Assembly: GCA_947484245.1 (NCBI GenBank)
Contig: CANKOT010000077.1
Coordinates: 1-10,996 of the forward strand
Source: Comamonadaceae bacterium
GTDB taxonomy: Bacteria; Pseudomonadota; Gammaproteobacteria; Burkholderiales; Burkholderiaceae
Direction: 5' to 3'
Length of the DNA stretch: 10,996 nucleotides
Shown here: positions 425 through 10,996 of the stretch, in pieces
Position numbering within the stretch: the stretch's first letter is position 1
Layout: the number at the start of each line of letters is the position of its first letter
Notes under the pieces: generated by a model
What the model was told of the DNA's origin: nothing
Database searches by the model: none
Seen by the model: only the letters and a program-made list of their open reading frames with translations
Program-made: the position numbers and the translations under genes

Positions 425-2494
425 TTAAGCCAAAGTATCCCATCCGTCTGCAGATCTCAACTCTTTATGGGCCAATGCCGCGTTGGGTGTTTCTGGGGTC
501 TCTACCCTGACATTGGCTTCATTGAAGTTGTTTTGTCGGGGTGTCGAATTTCCGCCAGACTCACGTTGAGAATCGCTGTTCACCCAGACATTAGCAACTG
601 CCATGCCCGATTGTGCCAAGCCTTCGCGTAACTTCGACATACCTTGTGTGATCAATTCGCGTGTCAGTGCATTGTCGGTCTTAAATAGGGCATCTAAGCC
701 GCCACTGCGCATGTCCAGTTCCACGTCAATGCTGCCCAAGTGGCCTGGGTTGAGTTTCAAATGCAGGCGCCATTGGCCTTTTTCCATCTGTTCTTGGAGG
801 CGCTCACTCATGGCCTGTCCCAGTTTGTCTGCCAGTTGTTGTATTTGAGCACCCCGATCCTCTAAGCTTGGTGCTGGAGGGGAATTTGTTGAAGTTGGGC
901 CGATCAGGCTATGTGTGGAGCGAGATGGCTCAGTGTTTGACGCGCTCACGGGAGAAGAGCTTGACTCAAAAGTAGCGCTGCTTAGCGCAATGTTCAAGTC
1001 AGCTAGAAGGTCGATGCCAATGTCTGTATCGCCCAGATTAAGGGTGGCTTGAGGAATAGAAGCGCTGCTATTGTCAGATTTCAAGGCGGCTGAGGCTAAA
1101 TTCGCCCATGTTGTGGGGGTGTCATTGCCATTGAGTTTGGCCAATTGCCGGGTCATGGTTTCCCATGCGGGAACCATTCGCATGCGCATTGCATCGAGAG
1201 GGCCCATTTCAACGGGAGACTCACTGGCAGGTTGAATGATGCTTTTGGGTGCCACTGAATCCAAGGTCTTTGTCGCAACCTGAGCAAGCAGGGCGGCAGC
1301 CATCAAGGGAGTTTCAACCGAAATAGGCGCTTGTGATGCTGGAGTGGGTGCTGCAGCGCTGACCAGGCCCATTTGAATGGCAGGGTTAGGCAAATTCGCA
1401 GGTGCAACGCTGTGCAAAGCAGTCTGAGGGGATGCCACCAAGGATGATGCATTTTGCAGGGTGCCAGAGGCTTGGTTGGCCAGAAGCAAGCTGTTAAGGT
1501 CAGACACACTGACGCTCGAGCCCACGGTCATCTCTGCAACAGGGGTGTCAAAATTCTCATTTGCCTGAGCAGTATCAGTGCTTGGTTTTAACTGACTTGC
1601 CGTATTGATGGGCAAGCCACTTTGAAGCAATGCTTGGGGAGCTGGTTGTTGTTGATTCAATAAAGACACCGATGCCGATACCGGTGCTGATCCGGGCAAC
1701 GATGCCGGTGCCGATACCGGTGCCCCTGCAGCTCCCGGGTTTACGGTCAAGTTATTCAGATTGGCCATTGAATTTGGAGATGTCAGATTGAGACTCTGAT
1801 GAGGTGCATTCGCCCAAACCGATTGGGCTGCCTTTTGAGCTTCTAAATTGACCGGCATTGCACTGGGGTGCGAGGCCAACCAAGTCAGGGTTGAGGCCTT
1901 CGGAAAGGCCTCTGACAGAGAGATACCAACGAGTGGCAGCCCAACTTCTTGAACTTCCGCATTTTGAAGCGTGCCCATAACAGGGGCAGTTGGGACCCTA
2001 TTGAGCGTCAAGTCTGAGTTGATTGAGCTGGCCAATGACATCAGAGAACTAGCGTTGTTTGGAGGGTTTGTCATAGTCGCCCACCCAATGGAGGAGGTTG
2101 TTTCTGTGCCAACCTGTGTGCTTGGTGTGCCTATTAACAAGTCGCCAAACAAGGCCTTGACAGCACTTTCACCTAAACCCTGGGATCTTGCAAATTCAGC
2201 CAAACTTCCTGCATCGGGAAGCGGCGAAGTTGTGGTGATGAGTGAAAGTTGATCACCCAGGTTCAGAGTTTGCAGGCCCGAGGTGGCCAAACCAAGCCCG
2301 TTATCTGCTCCGGGTGCGGCAATGCCTTGCCGGTCTGTAGGTGTCATCAAGTCGCGCATGACCCCTGCAAATTCTTGACCCGACATGGTGCCAGACATGC
2401 TGGCGTCGACGCCACTCACGGGGGCTGTAGCCCCTAAAGACAAGGCATTGGGGGCGGTGGTGCTTGCGAAAATTAGGTTGGCATCCATGTTCAT
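425..2494 (-). CDS. fliK: Flagellar hook-length control protein FliK
   Basis: FliK is a secreted molecular ruler that measures hook length and switches the export gate protein FlhB from hook to filament substrates. The 689-residue protein has the expected layout: a long low-complexity part rich in Ser, Ala, Pro, Asn and Gln (about 1-560), then a compact C-terminal Flg_hook domain at about 565-650. The domain signature LKLNPGHLGSIDVEL begins at residue 579 and is followed by the TRELI...LREGLAQSGM...VWVNS pattern. There is no signal peptide, as expected for a flagellar type III substrate. Length is above the roughly 400-residue enterobacterial form but within the range of proteobacterial FliK. 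A tandem tetrapeptide repeat occurs at about residues 256-276. Codon 1 (2494) and codon 3 (2488) are both ATG, and no strong Shine-Dalgarno sequence separates them. It is first in the minus-strand unit, with fliL next. Confidence 0.92.
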   Translation of the reverse strand: MNMDANLIFASTTAPNALSLGATAPVSGVDASMSGTMSGQEFAGVMRDLMTPTDRQGIAAPGADNGLGLATSGLQTLNLGDQLSLITTTSPLPDAGSLAEFARSQGLGESAVKALFGDLLIGTPSTQVGTETTSSIGWATMTNPPNNASSLMSLASSINSDLTLNRVPTAPVMGTLQNAEVQEVGLPLVGISLSEAFPKASTLTWLASHPSAMPVNLEAQKAAQSVWANAPHQSLNLTSPNSMANLNNLTVNPGAAGAPVSAPASLPGSAPVSASVSLLNQQQPAPQALLQSGLPINTASQLKPSTDTAQANENFDTPVAEMTVGSSVSVSDLNSLLLANQASGTLQNASSLVASPQTALHSVAPANLPNPAIQMGLVSAAAPTPASQAPISVETPLMAAALLAQVATKTLDSVAPKSIIQPASESPVEMGPLDAMRMRMVPAWETMTRQLAKLNGNDTPTTWANLASAALKSDNSSASIPQATLNLGDTDIGIDLLADLNIALSSATFESSSSPVSASNTEPSRSTHSLIGPTSTNSPPAPSLEDRGAQIQQLADKLGQAMSERLQEQMEKGQWRLHLKLNPGHLGSIDVELDMRSGGLDALFKTDNALTRELITQGMSKLREGLAQSGMAVANVWVNSDSQRESGGNSTPRQNNFNEANVRVETPETPNAALAHKELRSADGWDTLA
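1668..1727 (-). repeat. Imperfect 12-bp tandem repeat within fliK
   Basis: Five consecutive 12-bp units on the plus strand (ACCGATGCCGAT, ACCGGTGCTGAT, CCGGGCAACGAT, GCCGGTGCCGAT, ACCGGTGCCCCT) are degenerate copies of one sequence. Read on the minus strand they encode an Ser-x-Pro-x type tetrapeptide series (SAPA, SLPG, SAPV, SASV) in the disordered part of FliK. Because 12 bp is a multiple of three, gain or loss of a unit would keep the frame and change the ruler length by four residues. Confidence 0.8.
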
Positions 2495-2550
2495 TCCATG
2501 CTGGTTATTTCAAATTCAAGCCCAAAGTCATGGGCCGCTTCAGCTTAGTT

Positions 2551-2566
2551 AGCAAAAACTGTGACA
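2551..2566 (-). promoter_or_regulatory. Possible sigma-54 promoter facing fliK
   Basis: Read on the minus strand, TGTCACAGTTTTTGCT has the -12 element TTGCT, the CAC of the -24 element, and correct spacing, but the invariant GG is GT. The predicted start near 2540 would give a leader of about 45 nt before the fliK ATG at 2494, a sensible distance. The mismatch in the most conserved dinucleotide keeps the confidence low. Confidence 0.35.
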
Positions 2567-2604
2567 ACTTGGCATTGCCGCTGTCGGTAATGAGTGCTAT
2601 GGCT

Positions 2605-2621
2605 TTGGCACGGACTTTGCA
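2605..2621 (+). promoter_or_regulatory. Sigma-54 (RpoN) promoter facing flhA
   Basis: The sequence TTGGCACGGACTTTGCA matches the sigma-54 consensus TGGCACG-N4-TTGCW essentially perfectly. The invariant GG is at 2607-2608 and the invariant GC at 2619-2620, with the required 10-nt spacing between them. Transcription would be expected to begin about 12 nt beyond the GC, near 2632. This predicts dependence of the flhA operon on RpoN and an enhancer-binding activator such as a FleQ-type protein, which is established for flhA in polarly flagellated gammaproteobacteria. The start would fall only about 2 nt before the flhA ATG. Confidence 0.75.
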
Positions 2622-2633
2622 GAGTACCAAGCT

Positions 2634-4730
2634 ATGAGCACCTTCACACTGTCAACAGTTCGACAGAACTTGTCCAAATTCGATTACACCGGCCTGGGGT
2701 TACCCGCTATGGTGCTTTTGATCATGGCCATGTTGGTCGTGCCGCTACCGCCTCTGCTTCTGGACATTTTGTTCACCTTCAACATTGGCTGCAGTTTGTT
2801 GATCATCATGATTGCCATTGGCACACGCAAACCGCTTGAATTTTCATCTTTTCCCTCCGTCTTGTTGTTTGCCACCATGCTTCGCTTGGGTTTGAATGTG
2901 GCTTCCACCAGGGTTATCTTGGTGAGCGGCCATGAAGGCCATGATGCAGCTGGCAAAGTGGTGGCTGCATTTGGAGAGTTCGTGATTGGGGGCAACTATG
3001 TAGTTGGTTTCATTATTTTTGCGATTCTCATGATCATCAACTTCATCGTGGTTACAAAGGGAGCAGGGCGTGTATCTGAAGTAAATGCTCGCTTTACCTT
3101 GGATGCAATGCCTGGTAAGCAAATGTCAATTGACGCTGATTTGAATGCTGGCGTGATTGATCAAGAAACCGCAAAAAAGCGTCGCGAAGAACTTTCGCAA
3201 GAATCGGACTTCTTCGGCTCCATGGACGGTGCCTCCAAATTTGTAAGTGGCGATGCGGTGGCCGGTTTGCTTATATTGGTCATTAACTTAATTGGCGGTT
3301 TGGCCATTGGTGTGGGACAACACGGTTTGTCGCTCAGTGAAGCCGGACGCATTTACACACTCCTGACCATTGGCGATGGTCTGGTAGCCCAAATTCCTTC
3401 CTTGTTCTTGTCGCTGGCCACGGCCATCATTGTGACCCGCGTCACCACCTCTGAGTCTATGACCGAGCAGGCCAGCTCGCAGCTTTCCAATCCAACGGCT
3501 TTGTACATGTCAGCCGCCATTTTGGCCATTTTGGGCTTGGTTCCCGGCATGCCTCACTTGGTATTCATTACCTTGGCCTTGTGTACCGCTGGCTTGGCCT
3601 GGCGCATTACCCAAAAACAAGCCGAGCCTGTTTCGACACCTGCAGAGCAAGCCGCGTTGGCGGCGGCTGAAGAGCCCAAAGAATTGAACTGGGACGATGT
3701 TGATCAAGTTGATTTAATTGGTTTAGAAATTGGCTATGGCCTCATTCCCTTGGTTAACCCCGAAACGGGTGGTCAACTCATGAACCGTGTGAAGGGTGTG
3801 CGCAAAAAATTGTCTGCAGAATTGGGCTTTTTGGTCCAGCCTGTTCGAATTCGCGATGCCCTCACCATTGATCCCGATGCGTACCACATTGTTTTAAAAG
3901 GCGTGGTGCGAGGTAAAGGCCAAATCAAGGTGGGCCGCGAAATGGCCATTAATCCTGGCCAGGTCTATGGAACTTTGGAAGGCGAAGCCACAAAAGAGCC
4001 CGCTTTTGGCTTGGATGCTGTTTGGATTGACCCTTCACAGCGCGATTACGCCAGAACGCTTGGCTATACCGTGGTTGACCCAAGTACAGCCATTGCCACC
4101 CACTTGAATAAAGTGCTCAGAGACAACTCGGCTGATTTGCTCAGCCATGACGAAGTACAGCAGTTGTTAGACAAATTGGCCTCCAAGTCACCCAAGTTGG
4201 TTGAAGATTTGGTGCCAGGTAAGTTGTCTTTGGGTGTTGTGACTCGCACTTTGCAAAATTTATTGAACGAGTCGGTTTCCATTCGCGATATGCGCAGCAT
4301 TGCCGAAACGCTGTCTGAGGTAGCCTCACGCACCCAAGACCCCGATCAGTTGACGTCGCTGGTTCGACCCAAATTGGGACGCATGATTGTTCAAAGCTTG
4401 GTTGACGAAAGCAACAGCCTGTCGGTTATGACACTAGATCCCAACCTGGAACAACTCTTGCATAACATCTTGCAACAGTCGGCTCCTGGACAGAATATGG
4501 CAATTGAGCCTGGTTTGGCAGAGAGATTGTTTGGTGCGTTGCGTGAAGGAGCGCGTGCTGTGGAAGAAATGGGTCATCCTGCAGTTTTGGTGGTCTCTCC
4601 TGCGATTCGTCCTTGGCTTTCAAAAGCGGTTCGTTATCGCGTGAATGAGTTAACCTTGCTTTCATATAGTGAAATCCCGGATGACCAAAGCGTGAAAGTG
4701 ATTCACACCGTGCATGCCGAAACCCGTTGA
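2634..4730 (+). CDS. flhA: Flagellar type III export gate protein FlhA
   Basis: FlhA forms the nonameric export gate of the flagellar type III secretion system, coupling proton flow to export and docking chaperone-substrate complexes on its cytoplasmic ring. The 698-residue length is normal for the family. The N-terminal half holds the membrane segments (first at about 22-40, last ending near 325). The FHIPEP signature region is at about 141-171 (TKGAGRVSEVNARFTLDAMPGKQM), and the Lys-Asp pair at 202/207 (KFVSGD) matches residues implicated in proton use in the Salmonella protein. The C-terminal half is the soluble FlhA-C domain, separated by an Ala/Glu-rich linker at about 335-355. The start at 2634 places the VPLP motif after membrane segment 1 at residues 36-39, exactly as I recall for the enteric protein. 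No Shine-Dalgarno sequence precedes the ATG. The gene is first in flhA-flhF-flhG-fliA; flhB, its usual neighbour, is not adjacent. Confidence 0.97.
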   Translation: MSTFTLSTVRQNLSKFDYTGLGLPAMVLLIMAMLVVPLPPLLLDILFTFNIGCSLLIIMIAIGTRKPLEFSSFPSVLLFATMLRLGLNVASTRVILVSGHEGHDAAGKVVAAFGEFVIGGNYVVGFIIFAILMIINFIVVTKGAGRVSEVNARFTLDAMPGKQMSIDADLNAGVIDQETAKKRREELSQESDFFGSMDGASKFVSGDAVAGLLILVINLIGGLAIGVGQHGLSLSEAGRIYTLLTIGDGLVAQIPSLFLSLATAIIVTRVTTSESMTEQASSQLSNPTALYMSAAILAILGLVPGMPHLVFITLALCTAGLAWRITQKQAEPVSTPAEQAALAAAEEPKELNWDDVDQVDLIGLEIGYGLIPLVNPETGGQLMNRVKGVRKKLSAELGFLVQPVRIRDALTIDPDAYHIVLKGVVRGKGQIKVGREMAINPGQVYGTLEGEATKEPAFGLDAVWIDPSQRDYARTLGYTVVDPSTAIATHLNKVLRDNSADLLSHDEVQQLLDKLASKSPKLVEDLVPGKLSLGVVTRTLQNLLNESVSIRDMRSIAETLSEVASRTQDPDQLTSLVRPKLGRMIVQSLVDESNSLSVMTLDPNLEQLLHNILQQSAPGQNMAIEPGLAERLFGALREGARAVEEMGHPAVLVVSPAIRPWLSKAVRYRVNELTLLSYSEIPDDQSVKVIHTVHAETR

Positions 4731-4750
4731 ACATCGAATAGAGCGAGATC

Positions 4751-6214
4751 ATGGAACTAAAAAGAATTCTAGCCCGCGACACACGCAGTGCGACAGAGCA
4801 GGCGATGGCCATGTATGGACCAGATGTCCTGATCATTTCCAACAACCGAGTGTCGGGTCAAACTGAGTTGGTGGTGGCATTGGATGTGGCGGCTGAGTCA
4901 GCTACCTCAGTTTTGAATGAAGAAATGCCGACGGTCATGCCTAGTGTGCCGGTCGTGGCTGCCAGCCCTGAAAAAATCGAAGCTAAAGAGGCATCGCCCT
5001 CTGGCACAGACAACGAATTTGGTGATCATTTGCATGTGTTGTTGACACGCGGCGCAGGGGTGTCAGCATCAGCATCAGCACCCGCTGAAGTTGCCCAAGT
5101 TAAGGCGCCCGTTGAAGTTAAAAAACCCGCCGCCAAGGCCGCGCCTGTGGAAAAGAAGAAAACAGTGCGCAAAGTTGCTGCCCCCGCTGCAAAGAAGACA
5201 CCCCCTTCAAAACTGGCCCCTAAAGAAGAATTCCGTGCGGATGGCCAACACGAACAAATCCGAAGTCAAGAAATTGTGAGTCTGGTTCGCGAAGAGTTGG
5301 CTGCATTGCGCCGTGAATTCAGGTTGAGTCAACAAACCATGGGCTGGGAATCGCAACAAAGATGGTCTGAGCCAATTGCCCCGATTGTAGAAAACTTGGT
5401 GCAATCTGCCATGCCGTTTGAGTTAAGGACTTTGTTGCTTGACGGTTTGAAAGAGCAAAACACTTTCAAGCAAGCCATGAAAAGCATTCGAGATACGCTC
5501 ATGTGCAATTTGAAGCGTCCTCAAGCAGCCTTGCCGACAGCCGGTGTTCATGTGTTGGCCGGCCCTTCTGGTGCTGGCAAAACGCTCATGGTGGCGCGGT
5601 TGGCCCAACAAATGGCATTGGCCGAGGGTGCAGAAAAGGTTGCCGTGGTGTCATTTCAAGACACACGGGCTGGCGCATGGAGCCAAACTCAAATGCTTTG
5701 CGCCCAATCGGGTGTCGATAGTTTCCGTGCCACCGATTTAGACACCTTAAAGTTGGTGTTAGACGAACTCTCAAGCCGCCAATTGGTCCTTATTGACACG
5801 GCCAGCGTCCAAATGGGCGAGCGTTTGTTAGACGTTTTGAAAGTTTTGCCCACCGCCTCACTGCATGCCGTGGTGCCTGCCGACGCCTCTGCTGTCACCC
5901 TTAAGCGCGTGCTGCTCGATTCAAAAATGAACTGGAGCAGCCTTATGGTTAGTAAAGTTGATGAATCTAGTGCGCCATGGGCCTTATTGCAGTTTTTGAC
6001 ACAAGATGCTACTAAACTCTCGCTGTCTGTCGGTAGTTGCTCTGACCGTGTGGCAGCAGGTGGTATGGAAATGTCGCCTTCTGTTTTGGTCAATCTGGCA
6101 ATTGCACAATTGACGCCAGCTGAGCTTTCTGCACAGCCAACTTTGTCTAACCCTGCTGAATTGAAGCGCACACCCGTCGCGCGCAAAACAGCTCAACGAG
6201 AAATTCATGGATAA
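4751..6214 (+). CDS. flhF: Flagellar SRP-family GTPase FlhF (divergent G domain)
   Basis: FlhF is the third SRP-type GTPase (with Ffh and FtsY); it sets flagellar position, typically recruiting the first basal-body parts to the pole. The 487 residues comprise the FlhF-specific start (MELKRILARDTRSATEQAMAMYGPDVLIISN, the B domain), a Lys/Pro/Ala-rich linker at about 105-157, a helical N domain (about 165-255), and the G domain. The P-loop GPSGAGKT at 271-278 is intact. Other G motifs are altered: DTR in place of the usual DTYR (304-306), DTAS instead of DTAG (349-352), SKVD instead of TKLD (401-404), and no recognisable GQ-V-PED closing motif near 427-440. It starts 20 nt after the flhA stop and overlaps flhG by 8 nt, implying coupled translation. 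The identity is firm from N domain, order and P-loop; full GTPase activity is doubtful. Confidence 0.9.
   Translation: MELKRILARDTRSATEQAMAMYGPDVLIISNNRVSGQTELVVALDVAAESATSVLNEEMPTVMPSVPVVAASPEKIEAKEASPSGTDNEFGDHLHVLLTRGAGVSASASAPAEVAQVKAPVEVKKPAAKAAPVEKKKTVRKVAAPAAKKTPPSKLAPKEEFRADGQHEQIRSQEIVSLVREELAALRREFRLSQQTMGWESQQRWSEPIAPIVENLVQSAMPFELRTLLLDGLKEQNTFKQAMKSIRDTLMCNLKRPQAALPTAGVHVLAGPSGAGKTLMVARLAQQMALAEGAEKVAVVSFQDTRAGAWSQTQMLCAQSGVDSFRATDLDTLKLVLDELSSRQLVLIDTASVQMGERLLDVLKVLPTASLHAVVPADASAVTLKRVLLDSKMNWSSLMVSKVDESSAPWALLQFLTQDATKLSLSVGSCSDRVAAGGMEMSPSVLVNLAIAQLTPAELSAQPTLSNPAELKRTPVARKTAQREIHG
5063..5080 (+). repeat. Three TCAGCA hexanucleotide copies in flhF
   Basis: Three perfect tandem copies of TCAGCA encode Ser-Ala-Ser-Ala-Ser-Ala at the start of the FlhF linker. 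Copy-number change would stay in frame. It is too short to claim phase variation. Confidence 0.6.
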
Positions 6215-7029: not shown

Positions 7030-7776
7030 ATGGCCCATTCAACTCGTCTTTATGAAGAAGTTCAGAACAACAGCGAAGCGCTGGTCATGGCCCATTTGGG
7101 CATGGTCAAGCGAGTTGCCTTGCATCTGAAGGTGCGCTTGCCGCCTTTCATGGAATTGGACGAGTTAATTCAAGTGGGCATGATTGGTTTGCTTGAAGCT
7201 GCCAGAGCCTACAACCCCTCCAAGGGCATTGAGTTTGAAAACTTTGCCCACAGCCGGGTTCGTGGTGCCATTCTCGATGAGGTAAGACGGCTGTCCTTTC
7301 TACCCCGTTCGGCGGTGGCTATCAACAAGTCGCACAACGAAGCCAATCATGAGTTGGCTGCAGAGCTGGGAAGAACTCCCACCCAATCTGAGTTGGCCGA
7401 CCACATGGGCAAAGACATAGAGCTTTTTCACAAAGAAAGAACGCAAGCTCGCCGCTTTGAGACCTATTCCATGGAAGTTGTGACGGAAGAGGTGATGAAC
7501 ATTGCCACCGATTCGTCGCAGCAACCAGAAGCCATTGTGGAGCACGAGCAATTCATGGGCGCACTGACGGATGCCGTGGCCGAATTACCCGAGCGCGATC
7601 AATTGTTAATGAATTTGTATTACGTTGAAGAGCTCAATTTGAAAGAAATTGGCGAAGTTCTGGGTGTGACGGAGTCGCGCGTCAGCCAGTTGCTCACGGC
7701 TGTCGTCAAAAAGCTTCGAGGCACCCTCAAGGTAGAGCCTGTCTCCTCTGGCAAGTCCAAAGGGGGCAAGTCGTGA
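7030..7776 (+). CDS. fliA: Flagellar sigma factor FliA (sigma-28)
   Basis: FliA directs RNA polymerase to late flagellar genes (filament, chaperones, motor, chemotaxis) and is held inactive by FlgM until the hook is complete. The 248-residue protein has region 2 at about 14-86 (LDELIQVGMIGLLEAARAYN and the -10 binding RVRGAILDEVRR), region 3 at about 95-165, and region 4 at about 185-232 with the helix-turn-helix LKEIGEVLGVTESRVSQL. There is no region 1.1, as expected for this group. The ATG at 7030 lies 4 nt after the flhG stop, with a purine-rich AAGGCGAGGG at 7011-7020 as the ribosome binding site. A Lys/Gly/Ser-rich tail follows region 4. A near-consensus promoter of the type FliA itself recognises begins 39 nt after the stop, in front of fliS. 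Confidence 0.97.
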   Translation: MAHSTRLYEEVQNNSEALVMAHLGMVKRVALHLKVRLPPFMELDELIQVGMIGLLEAARAYNPSKGIEFENFAHSRVRGAILDEVRRLSFLPRSAVAINKSHNEANHELAAELGRTPTQSELADHMGKDIELFHKERTQARRFETYSMEVVTEEVMNIATDSSQQPEAIVEHEQFMGALTDAVAELPERDQLLMNLYYVEELNLKEIGEVLGVTESRVSQLLTAVVKKLRGTLKVEPVSSGKSKGGKS

Positions 7777-7814
7777 ACCTTGCAAATATGCCTTCTCAGC
7801 ACAGTCTTTTTGGC

Positions 7815-7841
7815 TCAAGTTTCCCTGTCAACCTCCGATAC
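7815..7841 (+). promoter_or_regulatory. Sigma-28 (FliA) promoter for fliS
   Basis: A -35 element TCAAGTTT (7815-7822) is followed after exactly 11 nt by TCCGATAC (7834-7841). Both closely match the FliA consensus TAAAGTTT-N11-GCCGATAA, with correct spacing. Transcription would begin near 7848, giving a leader of about 27 nt to the ATG at 7875. It lies in the gap between fliA and fliS, so newly made FliA would activate the gene next to its own. Confidence 0.8.
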
Positions 7842-7874
7842 CTGCAGTGTCAGTACTTATTGGAGCAGGAAAAC

Positions 7875-8309
7875 ATGAGATTGCATTTCAAAGCCATGGA
7901 AAGCTACGGAGAAGGCAGCCGTACTTCGCAAGCCGTTGTCGCCGACAACGTTGAGTTGATTCAAATGTTGTTTGATGGACTGATTGACAGTCTGGTCACA
8001 GCCCGTGGCCACATTGAACGCGAAGACATTGTCGAAAAGAATAAAAGTTTGATGCGTGCAGGCCGAATTGTGATTGGCTTGCAAGGCGCATTGGACCTGG
8101 AAAAAGGCGGTGATTTGGCCAACAACCTGTATGAGTTGTACAGCTATGTCACACGTCGATTGATTCATGTGAATGCACGCAACGACTTAGAAGTGTTGCA
8201 AGAGGTCTATGTCCTCATGAGTGATATTCGCCAAGCTTGGCGTGATGTTCCTAATTTGTTACCCAAACCAACACCTGCTGTAGGTGTTGGAATGTCTTCA
8301 ATGCATTGA
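7875..8309 (+). CDS. fliS: Flagellin export chaperone FliS
   Basis: FliS binds the C-terminal helix of flagellin in the cytoplasm, prevents premature polymerisation and delivers it to FlhA. The 144-residue product is close to family length and is all helical. Family hallmarks include MLFDGLIDSLVTARGHIE at about 36-53, the KNKSL segment, LDLEKGGDLANNLYELYSYV at about 77-96, a TRRLIHVN helix and the closing DIRQAW. The reading frame can be extended upstream to a GTG at 7773 that overlaps the fliA stop. I prefer 7875 because the FliA promoter lies inside that extension, AGGA at 7867-7870 is a good ribosome binding site, and the extra 34 residues resemble no part of FliS. The tail PKPTPAVGVGMSSMH is unusual and encoded partly by a hairpin. 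Its usual neighbours fliC and fliD are not in the window. Confidence 0.88.
   Translation: MRLHFKAMESYGEGSRTSQAVVADNVELIQMLFDGLIDSLVTARGHIEREDIVEKNKSLMRAGRIVIGLQGALDLEKGGDLANNLYELYSYVTRRLIHVNARNDLEVLQEVYVLMSDIRQAWRDVPNLLPKPTPAVGVGMSSMH
8268..8290. repeat. Perfect 9-bp inverted repeat at the fliS 3' end
   Basis: CCAACACCT (8268-8276) and AGGTGTTGG (8282-8290) are perfect complements around the 5-nt loop GCTGT. It lies inside the last codons of fliS. No T-run follows on the plus strand, so it is not a standard intrinsic terminator; mRNA 3' protection or a protein site are alternatives. Confidence 0.75.
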
Positions 8310-8328: not shown

Positions 8329-8347
8329 TGGTTTTGAAGGTCACAAT

Positions 8348-8390
8348 AACGGGCGTAGCTGAGTAGTCAGCCGCCCGTTTGTTCGTTTTT
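8348..8390 (+). terminator. Intrinsic terminator between fliS and motA
   Basis: AACGGGCG (8348-8355) pairs with CGCCCGTT (8372-8379). Inside it GCTGA (8358-8362) pairs with TCAGC (8367-8371) around the loop GTAG, leaving a 2-nt TA bulge. The 13-bp GC-rich stem is followed by a T-rich stretch ending in TTTTT (8386-8390). The structure is a good match to a rho-independent terminator for the fliA/fliS transcripts. It ends immediately before the motA ribosome binding site (GGAG at 8391-8394), so it may instead act as an attenuator or leader structure for motA. Confidence 0.75.
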
Positions 8391-8401
8391 GGAGAAAAAA
8401 T

Positions 8402-9265
8402 ATGAATGCGATTATTGGTATCGTTGTTTTGATGGTTTGTGTGTTCGGCGGCTTTATTATGGCCGGCGGAAGCATGAAGCCGATTATCAAAGCCGCGCCG
8501 GTTGAAACTTTCATTATTTTGGGAGCGGGTGTTGGCGGCATGCTGATTGGTAACAGCATGGATATTTTCAAAGGTGCTTTGGGGGGCATGGGCAAGGTTT
8601 TCAAAGGCCCGGCCTATAAAAAGGAAGATTACCTGAGTACCATTTTTGTTGTCTCTAAAATCATGAAGACGCTGAAAACAGAGGGTGCGGTAGCACTTGA
8701 AGCGCACATTGAAAACCCAGAGGCCAGCGCCATTTTTGGCGAGTACCCCAAAATTTTGCATGACCATGCGTTGCTGCATTTGATCTGCGACACCGTTCGT
8801 CTCATGGTCGTGTCCACCACCACTCTCAGCCCTTATGCCGTAGAAGAGGTCATGGACCAGGCAATTAAAACTCACCATCACGACGCTCTGAAACCCCAAA
8901 CCGCCTTGGCCACTTTGGCGGGCGCTTTGCCTGCTCTGGGTATCGTGGCTTGCGTGTTGGGCGTGGTTAAAACCATGGATGCGATTGACCAGCCGCCTGC
9001 AGTTCTGGGAGCCATGATTGGTGGTGCTTTGGTTGGTACCTTCTTGGGCGTGTTCATGGCTTATGGTTTTGTTGAGCCAATGGCCTCACGTTTGGCACAG
9101 ATCATCGATGATGAAAGCCAAATCTTCAAAGTGGTCAAACAAATCATCATTGGTACCATGCATGGACATCCTATGCCGCTCATCATTGAAGCCGCCAGGG
9201 TCAGTATCAGTCACCACAATCAACCCAGTTTTGCAGAAGTCTTTGATGGCTTGCGAGGTGCGTAA
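8402..9265 (+). CDS. motA: Flagellar motor stator protein MotA
   Basis: MotA forms the pentameric ring of the stator and pushes on FliG as protons pass through the MotA-MotB channel. The 287-residue length is normal. Four membrane segments are visible (about 2-20, 34-52, 170-190, 203-223), with the large cytoplasmic loop between the second and third. Key functional positions are retained: Glu100 in the LEAHIENPE segment matches E. coli Glu98, Pro177 (LPALGIVACVLGVV) and Pro226 (YGFVEPMA) match Pro173 and Pro222, and Lys92 stands where E. coli has Arg90, keeping the charge. The ATG at 8402 has a clear ribosome binding site, GGAG at 8391-8394. It is followed by motB after 2 nt. No sigma-28 or sigma-54 promoter was seen between fliS and motA. 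Confidence 0.97.
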   Translation: MNAIIGIVVLMVCVFGGFIMAGGSMKPIIKAAPVETFIILGAGVGGMLIGNSMDIFKGALGGMGKVFKGPAYKKEDYLSTIFVVSKIMKTLKTEGAVALEAHIENPEASAIFGEYPKILHDHALLHLICDTVRLMVVSTTTLSPYAVEEVMDQAIKTHHHDALKPQTALATLAGALPALGIVACVLGVVKTMDAIDQPPAVLGAMIGGALVGTFLGVFMAYGFVEPMASRLAQIIDDESQIFKVVKQIIIGTMHGHPMPLIIEAARVSISHHNQPSFAEVFDGLRGA

Positions 9266-9267
9266 AC

Positions 9268-10335
9268 ATGGCTGAGGCAGTGGCAGAAGCGAAACCTGAA
9301 ATTCAAGCAGAAGCGGCCCCTCTGCTTGAAGGGGCGCCTGCAGCTGAATCTGTTGCAGAAGTTGAAGCTGCGGCAGAAGTAGCACCGCTCATTCCAGACG
9401 AAGCGGCGCCAGATGCGCCCACGGTTGTAGCCCCAACCATCATGATTAAGAAGATCATCGACGATGGCCATGGGGGTGCTCACGGGGGCGCCTGGAAAAT
9501 TGCGCTGGCCGACATGATGACAGCCATGATGGCGTTCTTCTTGCTCATGTGGTTGCTCGGCTCGTCCAATGCCGATCAGCGAAAAAGTATTGCTGACTAT
9601 TTCAAGCCAACTTCTCAAAGCAATGTCACCATGGGCAAGCTAGCGGGATCAGACGGCCTGCTGGGCGGCAGCTCCATCATTGACACCGATGGCTTTCCAT
9701 TTTCTGCCAAACAAACAGGCCTGCTGAACATGGTCACCCCTCGTTCGCAAGGCGGCCCAACAGAAAACGATCCTTCGCCTAAAGGTGCTGACAGCAAAGA
9801 AGAGGGTCAAGATGGTGAAAACAAATCCAAGGCTGGCGGCGAAGCCTCTGACAAAGCTACCGACAAAGCCAATTTTGACAAATTAGAAAAAGAAATCAAA
9901 GAGAGCATGGCCAAAAACCCCAAGCTCGACAAGCTCAAAGATCAAGTGACCTTTGCGCGTGATAAAGATGGTCTGCGCATTGAAATCATTGACAAAGCAG
10001 ACTTTGCCATGTTTGGCCTGGGCACCACCAACATGACACCGCGCGCCCAAGCGCTGATTGCGGAAGTGGCCAAAACTTTGGCAGCCATGCCCAACAAAGT
10101 GGCCATTAGAGGCCATACCGACAGCGTGCAATTTGCCAACACAGACGACAGAAACAACTGGTCTTTGTCGGCAGAGCGCGCAGAAGAAACTCGCAAGATC
10201 ATTGAGAAGAAGGGCATTCCTTCAAATCGATTTGCCAAGATTGAAGGTGTGGCCGACACAGCCCCCTACAACCCGAACGATCTCAAAGATCCGCGCAATC
10301 GTCGCATTAGCATTACGGTGATGAACAGGGAATGA
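9268..10335 (+). CDS. motB: Flagellar motor stator protein MotB with acidic N-terminal extension
   Basis: MotB is the rotor-core dimer of the stator, carrying the proton-binding Asp in its membrane helix and anchoring to peptidoglycan. The 355-residue protein has a cytoplasmic Ala/Glu-rich stretch (about 1-50), the family start IKKIIDDGHGGAHGGAWKIALAD, one membrane helix (about 79-98) with Asp82 equivalent to E. coli Asp32, a charged, probably disordered linker (about 160-205), and an OmpA-like peptidoglycan-binding domain (about 245-352) with GHTDS at 282-286, WSLSAERA at 298-305 and NRRISI at 344-349. The start at 9268 has a good ribosome binding site, GAGGTG at 9255-9260, whereas the internal ATG at 9442 (residue 59) has none, so the extension appears real. 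The extension adds about 50 residues relative to the enteric protein. The stop overlaps the next gene start. Confidence 0.96.
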   Translation: MAEAVAEAKPEIQAEAAPLLEGAPAAESVAEVEAAAEVAPLIPDEAAPDAPTVVAPTIMIKKIIDDGHGGAHGGAWKIALADMMTAMMAFFLLMWLLGSSNADQRKSIADYFKPTSQSNVTMGKLAGSDGLLGGSSIIDTDGFPFSAKQTGLLNMVTPRSQGGPTENDPSPKGADSKEEGQDGENKSKAGGEASDKATDKANFDKLEKEIKESMAKNPKLDKLKDQVTFARDKDGLRIEIIDKADFAMFGLGTTNMTPRAQALIAEVAKTLAAMPNKVAIRGHTDSVQFANTDDRNNWSLSAERAEETRKIIEKKGIPSNRFAKIEGVADTAPYNPNDLKDPRNRRISITVMNRE

Positions 10336-10996
10336 GTAGCTCTTCGCAAACCTTTGTTCAGTGTTTAACTGCAGTGGCCCAACACCATGGGCTGCAGGTT
10401 AATCCTGAGCGCGTGATCACTGAGTATGCGCTGGGTCATGACGAGCCCAGCGATTTGGTGCTCATGCGCATTGCCTCCGACATTGGTTTAAAAGCCAAGG
10501 CCATGCCCATGACTTGGCAGGGCTTGTTGGCGCAAACCGGCGTGTTTCCTCTCATAGCTCGCACCAAGTCTGGTAAAGCCCTTATTGTGGTGGGTGTTCG
10601 AAATGAAGGCGAAGCCAAGGTGGCTGTGCTAGATCCGCAGAGTGCACAAGCCGTGGTGGTTCTCATGGACCGCGCAAGCTTTTGCGCCCAGTGGAGCGGC
10701 GATGTGTTGTTGCTCAAACGAGAGCACAAACTCACTGACCCCAATCAGCCCTTTGGCTTCAGATGGTTTATTCCAGAAATCTTGAAGCAAAAATCTGCGT
10801 TTCGAGATATTTTCTTGGCGGCCATGGCCATGCATGTGTTGGGATTGGCGTCTCCCATCTTTTTCCAATTGGTCATTGACAAAGTGCTGACGCACCAAAG
10901 CGAAACCACGCTGTGGGTCTTGGGTGTGGGCATTGTGTTGGCCTTGTTGTTTGATGCGATCTTTGGCTATTTGCGCCAACTGCTTACCTTGTCGGC
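10332..10996 (+). CDS. Type I secretion ABC transporter, HlyB/LapB type (partial, N-terminal part)
   Basis: This would be the inner-membrane ABC exporter of a type I secretion system, which moves RTX toxins, adhesins or enzymes directly from cytoplasm to outside with a membrane-fusion protein and TolC. The 221 visible residues hold a C39-peptidase-like domain (about 1-128) and the start of the exporter membrane domain (from about 155), preceded by FGFRWFIPEILKQKS, very close to the HlyB pattern. The catalytic Cys position aligns with Thr7; Cys11 aligns with a second, non-catalytic Cys. The His found at 83 in HlyB is Ala here; Asp101 in the LDP motif remains. It is therefore a non-cleaving C39-like domain that should bind substrate rather than cut a leader. 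The ATP-binding domain is beyond the window. The ATG at 10332 overlaps the motB stop (ATGA), indicating translational coupling. Substrate is unknown from this window. Confidence 0.85.
   Translation, partial: MSSSSQTFVQCLTAVAQHHGLQVNPERVITEYALGHDEPSDLVLMRIASDIGLKAKAMPMTWQGLLAQTGVFPLIARTKSGKALIVVGVRNEGEAKVAVLDPQSAQAVVVLMDRASFCAQWSGDVLLLKREHKLTDPNQPFGFRWFIPEILKQKSAFRDIFLAAMAMHVLGLASPIFFQLVIDKVLTHQSETTLWVLGVGIVLALLFDAIFGYLRQLLTLS

Follow-up and report, generated by a model that had tools for sequence, protein, structure and literature searches.

A type I secretion exporter gene directly behind the flagellar stator gene motB in Comamonadaceae and its probable giant ALTTAQ-repeat substrate

Introduction

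The LapB/LapC/LapE-LapA system of Pseudomonas combines a type I secretion system (T1SS) with a giant surface protein, as the gene cassette that we describe here behind the flagellar stator gene motB probably does. The two differ in that the HlyB model gives the exporter of our cassette a higher score than the LssB model does and in that the giant proteins that we printed begin with repeats. In marine Synechococcus, SwmA/SwmB tie a giant surface protein to swimming, but motility there is nonflagellar. FrhA of Vibrio cholerae is T1SS cargo, and we know of no adjacency of frhA to motB.

FrhA is a large repeats-in-toxin adhesin (excerpt of PMC10865825). In V. cholerae O395, frhA is reported as a class 4 flagellar gene that falls in expression without FlrA, FlrBC, or FliA, and in V. 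cholerae A1552 loss of FlrA is reported to increase its expression in late stationary phase (excerpt of PMC6890996). The giants reported here that carry FliA-like sites resemble flagellar-class frhA, as compared from sequence alone, but they have another repeat type, ALTTAQ, and come from another class of bacteria. Given a flagellar-class frhA, a system of this kind is already known; what is new is the junction with a stator gene, the ALTTAQ cargo, and the flagellin-linked relatives.

In Salmonella, SiiAB are described as MotAB-like proteins that control retention of SiiE (excerpt of PMC6272769). The SPI-4 genes siiA to siiF resemble our locus in that one stretch encodes both a MotAB-like pair and the T1SS for a giant substrate. 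However, SiiAB are accessory secretion proteins, whereas the MotAB proteins encoded here are flagellar stators within a flagellar operon, and SiiE has Ig-like domains where the giant described here has ALTTAQ repeats. In the excerpts available from the open-licence literature, no paper connected a giant T1SS protein of these bacteria with FliA, and the term “ALTTAQ” was not found in that literature. To our knowledge, PF20080, the ALTTAQ family, is a Pfam repeat without a role.

Results

The window, the whole stretch of 10,996 nucleotides that we analyzed, is a flagellar region with fliL and fliK on the minus strand and, in order on the plus strand, flhA, flhF, flhG (named from a MinD-type match and its gene place), fliA, fliS, motA, motB, and an ABC exporter gene of which the window includes only the 5' part. 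Before fliS-motA-motB-exporter lies a FliA (sigma-28)-like site, TCAAGTTT-N11-TCCGATAC (positions 7815 to 7841, plus strand). A matrix built from 10 flagellin sites alone scores this site at 19.5, above every other site on either strand of the window (next, 12.7). The fliS open reading frame (ORF; positions 7773 to 8309, plus strand) encodes an export chaperone with PF02561 and a TIGR00208 score above the cut-off. Because the PF02561 domain begins only at about residue 52 of the called ORF, the true start probably lies downstream of both the called GTG and the sigma-28-like site (window positions 7773 to 7880). A conserved terminator-like hairpin occupies the gap between fliS and motA (positions 8343 to 8382, plus strand; −21.2 kcal/mol for positions 8341 to 8395) and is visible in nine printed relatives, both with and without the exporter; Rfam at gathering thresholds gave no match anywhere in the window, this hairpin included. 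Given this hairpin, read-through from the fliS promoter into motAB is plausible rather than certain.

Both stator genes are of the standard flagellar type. The product of motA (positions 8402 to 9265, plus strand) has PF20560 and PF01618 and passes the equivalog TIGR03818 for flagellar MotA1 (337.2 bits; cut-off, 303.8), and motB (positions 9268 to 10335, plus strand) encodes a plug (PF13677) and an OmpA-type domain (PF00691). Because MotA passes the flagellar cut-off and sits in a flagellar operon, membership of the SiiAB family was rejected. In a comparison of MotB with viral contigs, 21 stretches fit a pattern and none encoded a relative.

The motB stop codon is a TGA that ends at position 10335, and the exporter ORF opens with an ATG at position 10332, so that the two genes share an ATGA (positions 10332 to 10335, plus strand), as the first-pass annotation had reported. 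The exporter ORF continues for 221 codons to the window end (positions 10332 to 10996, plus strand). Scans of positions 9200 to 10996 agree with the earlier statement that neither promoter nor terminator separates the genes: no sigma-70-type promoter was found there, and the first plus-strand terminator-like site lies at position 10525, within the exporter ORF. The scans made in motB likewise found no internal promoter from which the exporter would be expressed independently. The overlap itself is not conserved. In two of the closest relatives (L001 and L003), the exporter starts 7 bp past the motB stop, with an overlapping ATG present but out of frame in L001, and the conserved feature is the very tight spacing of motB and exporter rather than the ATGA.

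The exporter fragment comprises a C39-like domain (PF03412) and the start of the membrane domain. It matches the N termini of TIGR01846 (HlyB; 121.5 bits) and TIGR03375 (LssB; 103.1 bits), below the cut-offs because it is only a fragment, and it aligns with the solved HlyB structure from residue 11. The full-length exporter of L003 has the transmembrane and ATPase domains of an ABC exporter (PF00664, PF00005, and PF03412) and scores 646.4 against TIGR01846 (cut-off, 725.55) and 529.9 against the LssB model (cut-off, 693.1). Because the first of these scores is under the TIGR01846 cut-off, we describe the exporter as HlyB-like rather than as a member of the HlyB subfamily. The L003 hlyD gene, whose counterpart would lie outside the window, scores 318.5 against TIGR01843 (cut-off, 208.65), and its frame overlaps the exporter end. 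Outer-membrane proteins of the OEP family, candidates for the TolC-type role, were found above the cut-off in all six genomes tested, and no OEP gene lies on the cassette contig in G001 to G003.

We scanned a species-genome collection with the exporter fragment and kept the best 80 of 111 relatives. The three best matches (L001, L002, and L003), from Comamonadaceae metagenome-assembled genomes (MAGs) with exporters 73 to 74% identical to that of the window, have motB upstream of the exporter, and besides the window they are the only such loci among those 80, within contig reach. In a tree built from the N-terminal part of the exporter (83 rows), they form one clade with the window (97/95). The adjacency about which the first-pass annotation had asked therefore extends to three further MAGs and is not a feature of one strain, but it is found in only 3/80 exporter loci.

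The window stops short of hlyD and of any substrate gene, and everything downstream is therefore taken from relatives, which the window's own downstream genes probably match. Rightward extension in L001 and L003 gives the adaptor and the probable large substrate that had been sought: motB is followed by the exporter (713 amino acids), hlyD (454 amino acids), a gap of nearly 600 bp, and a giant gene made up of PF20080 “ALTTAQ” repeats, with 15 to 16 PF20080 stretches in the part sequenced and an open frame that runs off the contig. The shorter contig of L002, with hlyD split into two frames, reaches the first 80 residues of the giant. ORFs matching the L003 giant were found at 47 or more of the 80 exporter loci, either upstream of the exporter (29 loci, mostly Oxalobacteraceae, with Iodobacter) or downstream of it (18 loci, mostly Comamonadaceae). 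No such ORF was found at the other 33 loci in the ORF set used; some of these are on short contigs or had an ORF of the other strand preferred.

Based on gene adjacency, the giant ALTTAQ-repeat protein is probably the substrate of the exporter, in keeping with the large surface-type substrate suggested beforehand. The seven complete exporter-linked giants that we printed are 1,318 to 3,086 residues long, begin with repeats, have no signal peptide that could be seen by eye, and terminate in an acidic domain that we labeled Ca-binding-like from its sequence. A single-sequence AlphaFold2 model of the N-terminal 484 residues of the giant has many short helices (mean pLDDT, 67), and a Foldseek search with it returned no PDB match at an E value of 0.001 or better.

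The space between hlyD and the giant also contains a conserved ORF of 73 to 83 residues on the opposite strand (L001, positions 4699 to 4951; L003, positions 13521 to 13743, minus strand), with similar ORFs in L005, L007, L015, and L036. It has no Pfam match (L003 and L007 copies) and no NCBIfam match (L003 copy).

That a proton-channel pair shares its gene string with a T1SS for a giant substrate could also mean that MotAB cooperates physically with the exporter in holding or releasing the giant, as is thought for SiiA/SiiB and SiiE. We consider this very improbable, since MotA is a standard flagellar stator by a curated cut-off, encoded in an ordinary flagellar operon, and motB is not beside 77/80 exporter relatives within contig reach.

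The history of the junction can be read from the stator genes themselves. In a tree of MotA plus MotB (46 rows), the window is placed immediately outside a clade of 20 rows (joint group, 92/86), and only 3 of these 20 nearest rows carry the exporter; two noncarriers share a four-row group with L001 and L003, and L002 is elsewhere. All 17 nearest noncarriers have, by folding, a hairpin with a T-run directly 3' of a TAA motB stop, and in 16 of them the next gene reads by eye as a FAD-binding oxygenase (L123 has other ORFs). A terminator scan did not list the motB hairpins of L112 and L120, probably because A-T pairing absorbs the T-run. The window and L001 to L003, by contrast, have a TGA stop with no hairpin after motB, and their MotB ends in NRE or NRD versus NQ or PQ in the 17 noncarriers. 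A genome that branches outside the 20-row clade (G084) has TGA and NRE at motB without exporter or hairpin. The genes behind its motB (L211, positions 810 to 4428) resemble by eye those for GDP-sugar synthesis, a different cluster at the same site.

The last 50 nucleotides of the L002 motB look recombinant. From positions −800 to −200, its nearest relative is the noncarrier L116 (95, 93, and 88% identity in three blocks), over the last 50 columns it is 96% identical to the carrier L003 and at most 84% identical to any other row, and the 150 columns between these regions are nearest to other noncarriers. No signal of this kind was detected in the L001 motB. The most economical account is that recombination at the very end of motB allows the cassette to spread and to take the place of the terminator; repeated loss of the cassette is a possible alternative history. 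With so patchy a junction, marked by the hairpin of all 17 noncarriers and the recombinant-looking tail of L002, the coupling to MotB is local. The first-pass annotation had proposed that the exporter is cotranslated with MotB. As a general rule this was rejected, given that motB adjoins the exporter in 3/80 loci, that 3/20 of the nearest MotAB rows carry the exporter, and that the ATGA is not kept.

The carriers are MAGs. In one of them (G002), which may be composite, motB occurs twice, once together with the exporter (L002) and once with the hairpin and oxygenase gene (L107). In G003, contig C30 opens with an ORF end of 89 residues; tested as a possible C terminus of the giant, it had no significant match among the ORFs of the 80 loci. 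Between this ORF end and the FAD oxygenase gene that trails motB in sister genomes lies a block of mostly minus-strand ORFs (L207, positions 1640 to 11545) that look by eye like surface-sugar genes.

The patchy distribution of the exporter on the MotAB tree, the L002 motB tail, and the other gene cluster behind motB in G084 are what would be expected if a self-contained surface-protein cassette that moves by recombination had landed behind motB by accident, yielding a fused transcript without a role in motility. That 70/80 exporter loci have no canonical flagellar neighbor (motB, fliE-J operon, or flagellin) within contig reach points the same way, although many of the contigs are short and the query proteins came from Comamonadaceae. 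We nevertheless regard such an accident as unlikely, because cassettes of the same kind also occur at other flagellar places.

A search with flagellar proteins found a canonical flagellar gene at 10/80 exporter loci, namely motB (L001 to L003), fliF (L004, L005, L007, L011, L015, and L023), or flagellin (L023 and L024). Five of these loci (L004, L005, L007, L011, and L015) contain the operon genes fliE-fliF-fliG-fliH-fliI-fliJ as far as the contigs reach, and L023 has fliE-J operon genes together with its flagellin gene; in all six, a sigma-54 activator gene stands first in the operon. At L010, this activator and an unnamed ORF were the only matches, and at L014 a fragment of that ORF was the only one; a 38% match to the activator at L054 was set aside. 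The other 67/80 loci showed no match, again with many short contigs and Comamonadaceae queries.

At the genome level, motB was matched in 26 of the 30 exporter genomes searched. The other four comprise two with flhA, one with fliF beside the exporter (G005), and one in which neither motB nor flhA was found (G029). Within the genus of the window, the exporter was detected at an E value of 1e-150 in 7/90 genomes, all of them with motB (12 best candidates scored per genome); motB was found in 65 of the 90, which are of unstated completeness.

FliA-like sites are far more common at the giants than at control genes, which likewise argues against an accidental landing. In a test with the FliA consensus TAAAGTTT-N11-GCCGATAA, the best near-start site scored 13/16 in 11/29 giants and 12 in 4 more, compared with none at 13 and 5 at 12 among 462 control genes from these loci, and none of 60 exporter genes or 55 hlyD genes reached 12. 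We also used a matrix trained on 12 flagellin and fliS sites, with the giants excluded from training. Nine of the 29 giants scored above all 462 controls (maximum, 13.5, leaving out the fliS of L003, a training gene), and 13 exceeded the control 99th percentile (10.8), with sites 63 to 168 bp before the called start; the remaining 16 did not exceed it. Among 61 exporter genes, the best scores were 14.6 (L048) and 11.8 (L024), only one being above the control maximum, and the best of 57 hlyD genes was 8.6. The exporter genes as a class are thus without FliA-like sites. Relatives are not independent samples.

Letter-shuffled giant upstream regions exceeded 13.5 in 0.3% of cases. The reverse-strand control failed: 9/29 giant upstream regions were above 13.5 on the opposite strand, equal to the number on their own strand. 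These nine sites (L001, L003, L005, L015, L033, L034, L036, L053, and L062) lie about 240 to 335 bp upstream of the giant. Of the seven loci where small ORFs were sought, five (L001, L003, L005, L015, and L036) have the 73- to 83-residue ORF behind the opposite-strand site; in L007 the ORF is present and the site is missing (reverse score, 5.1), and L023 has neither. The site of the small ORF scores 22.7 in both L001 and L003. We read the opposite-strand sites as probable divergent promoters of the small ORF.

Thirteen more starts were scored, 11 of them from exporter-less ALTTAQ genes or their neighbors in the same genus and 2 from the carriers G002 and G001. Nine were above 13.5 (L182, L183, one of three L185 frames, L188 to L192, and L002 [292 bp]); the other two L185 frames, L187, and L194 were not. 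Four genes with ALTTAQ hits (L197, L198, L200, and L201, from G031, G051, and G103) had no FliA-like site, with scores of 0.2 to 6.1; L199 and L202, open at the start, fell outside the scoring. FliA-like sites of 12/16 or better were also sought in the motAB loci of six exporter genomes from other genera (L099, L101 to L104, and L106), and one was found, in L106.

PF20080 occurs above its cut-off in 28/90 genomes of the genus, with subthreshold matches only in G034 and G070. Four of the 28 (G031, G051, G063, and G103) have no flagellin or motB match, and G031 has a 45% FlhA-like match. For the other 24, we tallied linkage by hand from coordinates, among the matches listed. In at least 15, including the exporter genomes G014 and G015 (two of the seven), a flagellin and an ALTTAQ match lie on one contig no more than 10 kb apart, and 3 are motB carriers with the cassette, one of which (G002) has no flagellin match. 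In G106, the distance from flagellin to the ALTTAQ match is 15 kb, among the matches listed. No linkage within 10 kb was seen, again among the matches listed, in G054 (48 kb), G066 (191 kb), G077, G084, and G098, some of which have short contigs.

Direct reading placed the ALTTAQ genes of five loci in genomes without the exporter (L182, L187, L189, L190, and L191) within about 2 kb of flagellin genes, and in G055 the PF20080 and flagellin matches are only about 42 bp apart. The surroundings of L212 to L214 and L216 contain genes read as flagellin, fliD, flgL, or flgK, and those of L215 fliE-fliI; the fliD and flgL genes of L216 and two flagellin genes were confirmed by search, and the other names were given by eye. 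This clustering of exporter-less ALTTAQ genes with flagellins is a further point against the cassette having reached motB by chance. In L189, a family 41 glycosyltransferase gene (PF13844) adjoins the giant. Open frames over flagellins in G037, G040, and G049, also of this genus, are unusually long (758 to 992 codons).

The proximity of ALTTAQ genes to flagellins, down to about 42 bp in G055, would also fit a giant that coats or decorates the flagellar filament, as a sheath, hair, or cap-like structure, and is not an adhesin, with exporter-less versions leaving by the flagellar export apparatus. The four exporter-less proteins that we printed end in repeats, as opposed to the Ca-binding-like domain that ends the seven exporter-linked ones, and this counts for the same reading. 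Against it, the exporter-linked versions resemble ordinary T1SS cargo, and we consider a filament coat a minor, rather doubtful outcome within the explanation that we prefer, namely an exporter that serves the flagellar program.

Discussion

On balance, we lean toward the view that the exporter belongs to an accessory T1SS of the late flagellar program, with a giant ALTTAQ protein associated with the cell surface or filament as its cargo. The exporter would be the inner-membrane ABC component, working with HlyD and a TolC-type pore whose gene lies at another place, and its export cargo would be the giant. A mobile cassette of exporter, hlyD, small ORF, and giant would have replaced the last bases of motB together with its stop codon and terminator, and the hairpin is indeed absent in the carriers. 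The exporter and hlyD would then be cotranscribed by read-through from the fliS-motA-motB transcript, with the giant transcribed from its own FliA-like promoter, such that pump and cargo would both be made late in flagellum assembly. The giant may appear on the surface of swimming cells or on their filaments, where its likeliest role would be that of an attachment protein or a filament-associated surface protein.

The link to swimming that the first-pass annotation had suggested has gained strength, from the flagellar neighbors and the FliA-like sites though not from MotB as such, and a substrate clearly unrelated to motility was not what the relatives revealed: many of their giants have FliA-like sites, and there are flagellin-linked kin. 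A broader proposal, which we put forward tentatively and as possible rather than probable, is that ALTTAQ (PF20080) proteins are an unrecognized class of giant flagellum-associated proteins in the Comamonadaceae and their relatives. Members would be products of late flagellar genes switched on by FliA, some leaving through a T1SS wired into motB, flagellin, or fliE-J clusters and others possibly through the flagellar export apparatus, and all would coat or extend from the filament or the swimming cell.

The PF20080 repeat family thereby gains a testable cellular place in the late flagellar program, and a secretion cassette is found spliced onto a stator gene where the terminator would otherwise lie, a cassette that apparently moves through recombination at the very end of motB. 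The arrangement suggests that freshwater bacteria time the secretion of a giant surface protein to the motor, and removing single genes from it would allow a test of whether it serves a switch from swimming to attachment. With the exporter behind motB and the same pump or giant beside other flagellum genes and with FliA-like sites, the giant probably takes part in swimming or in the transition from swimming to an attached state.
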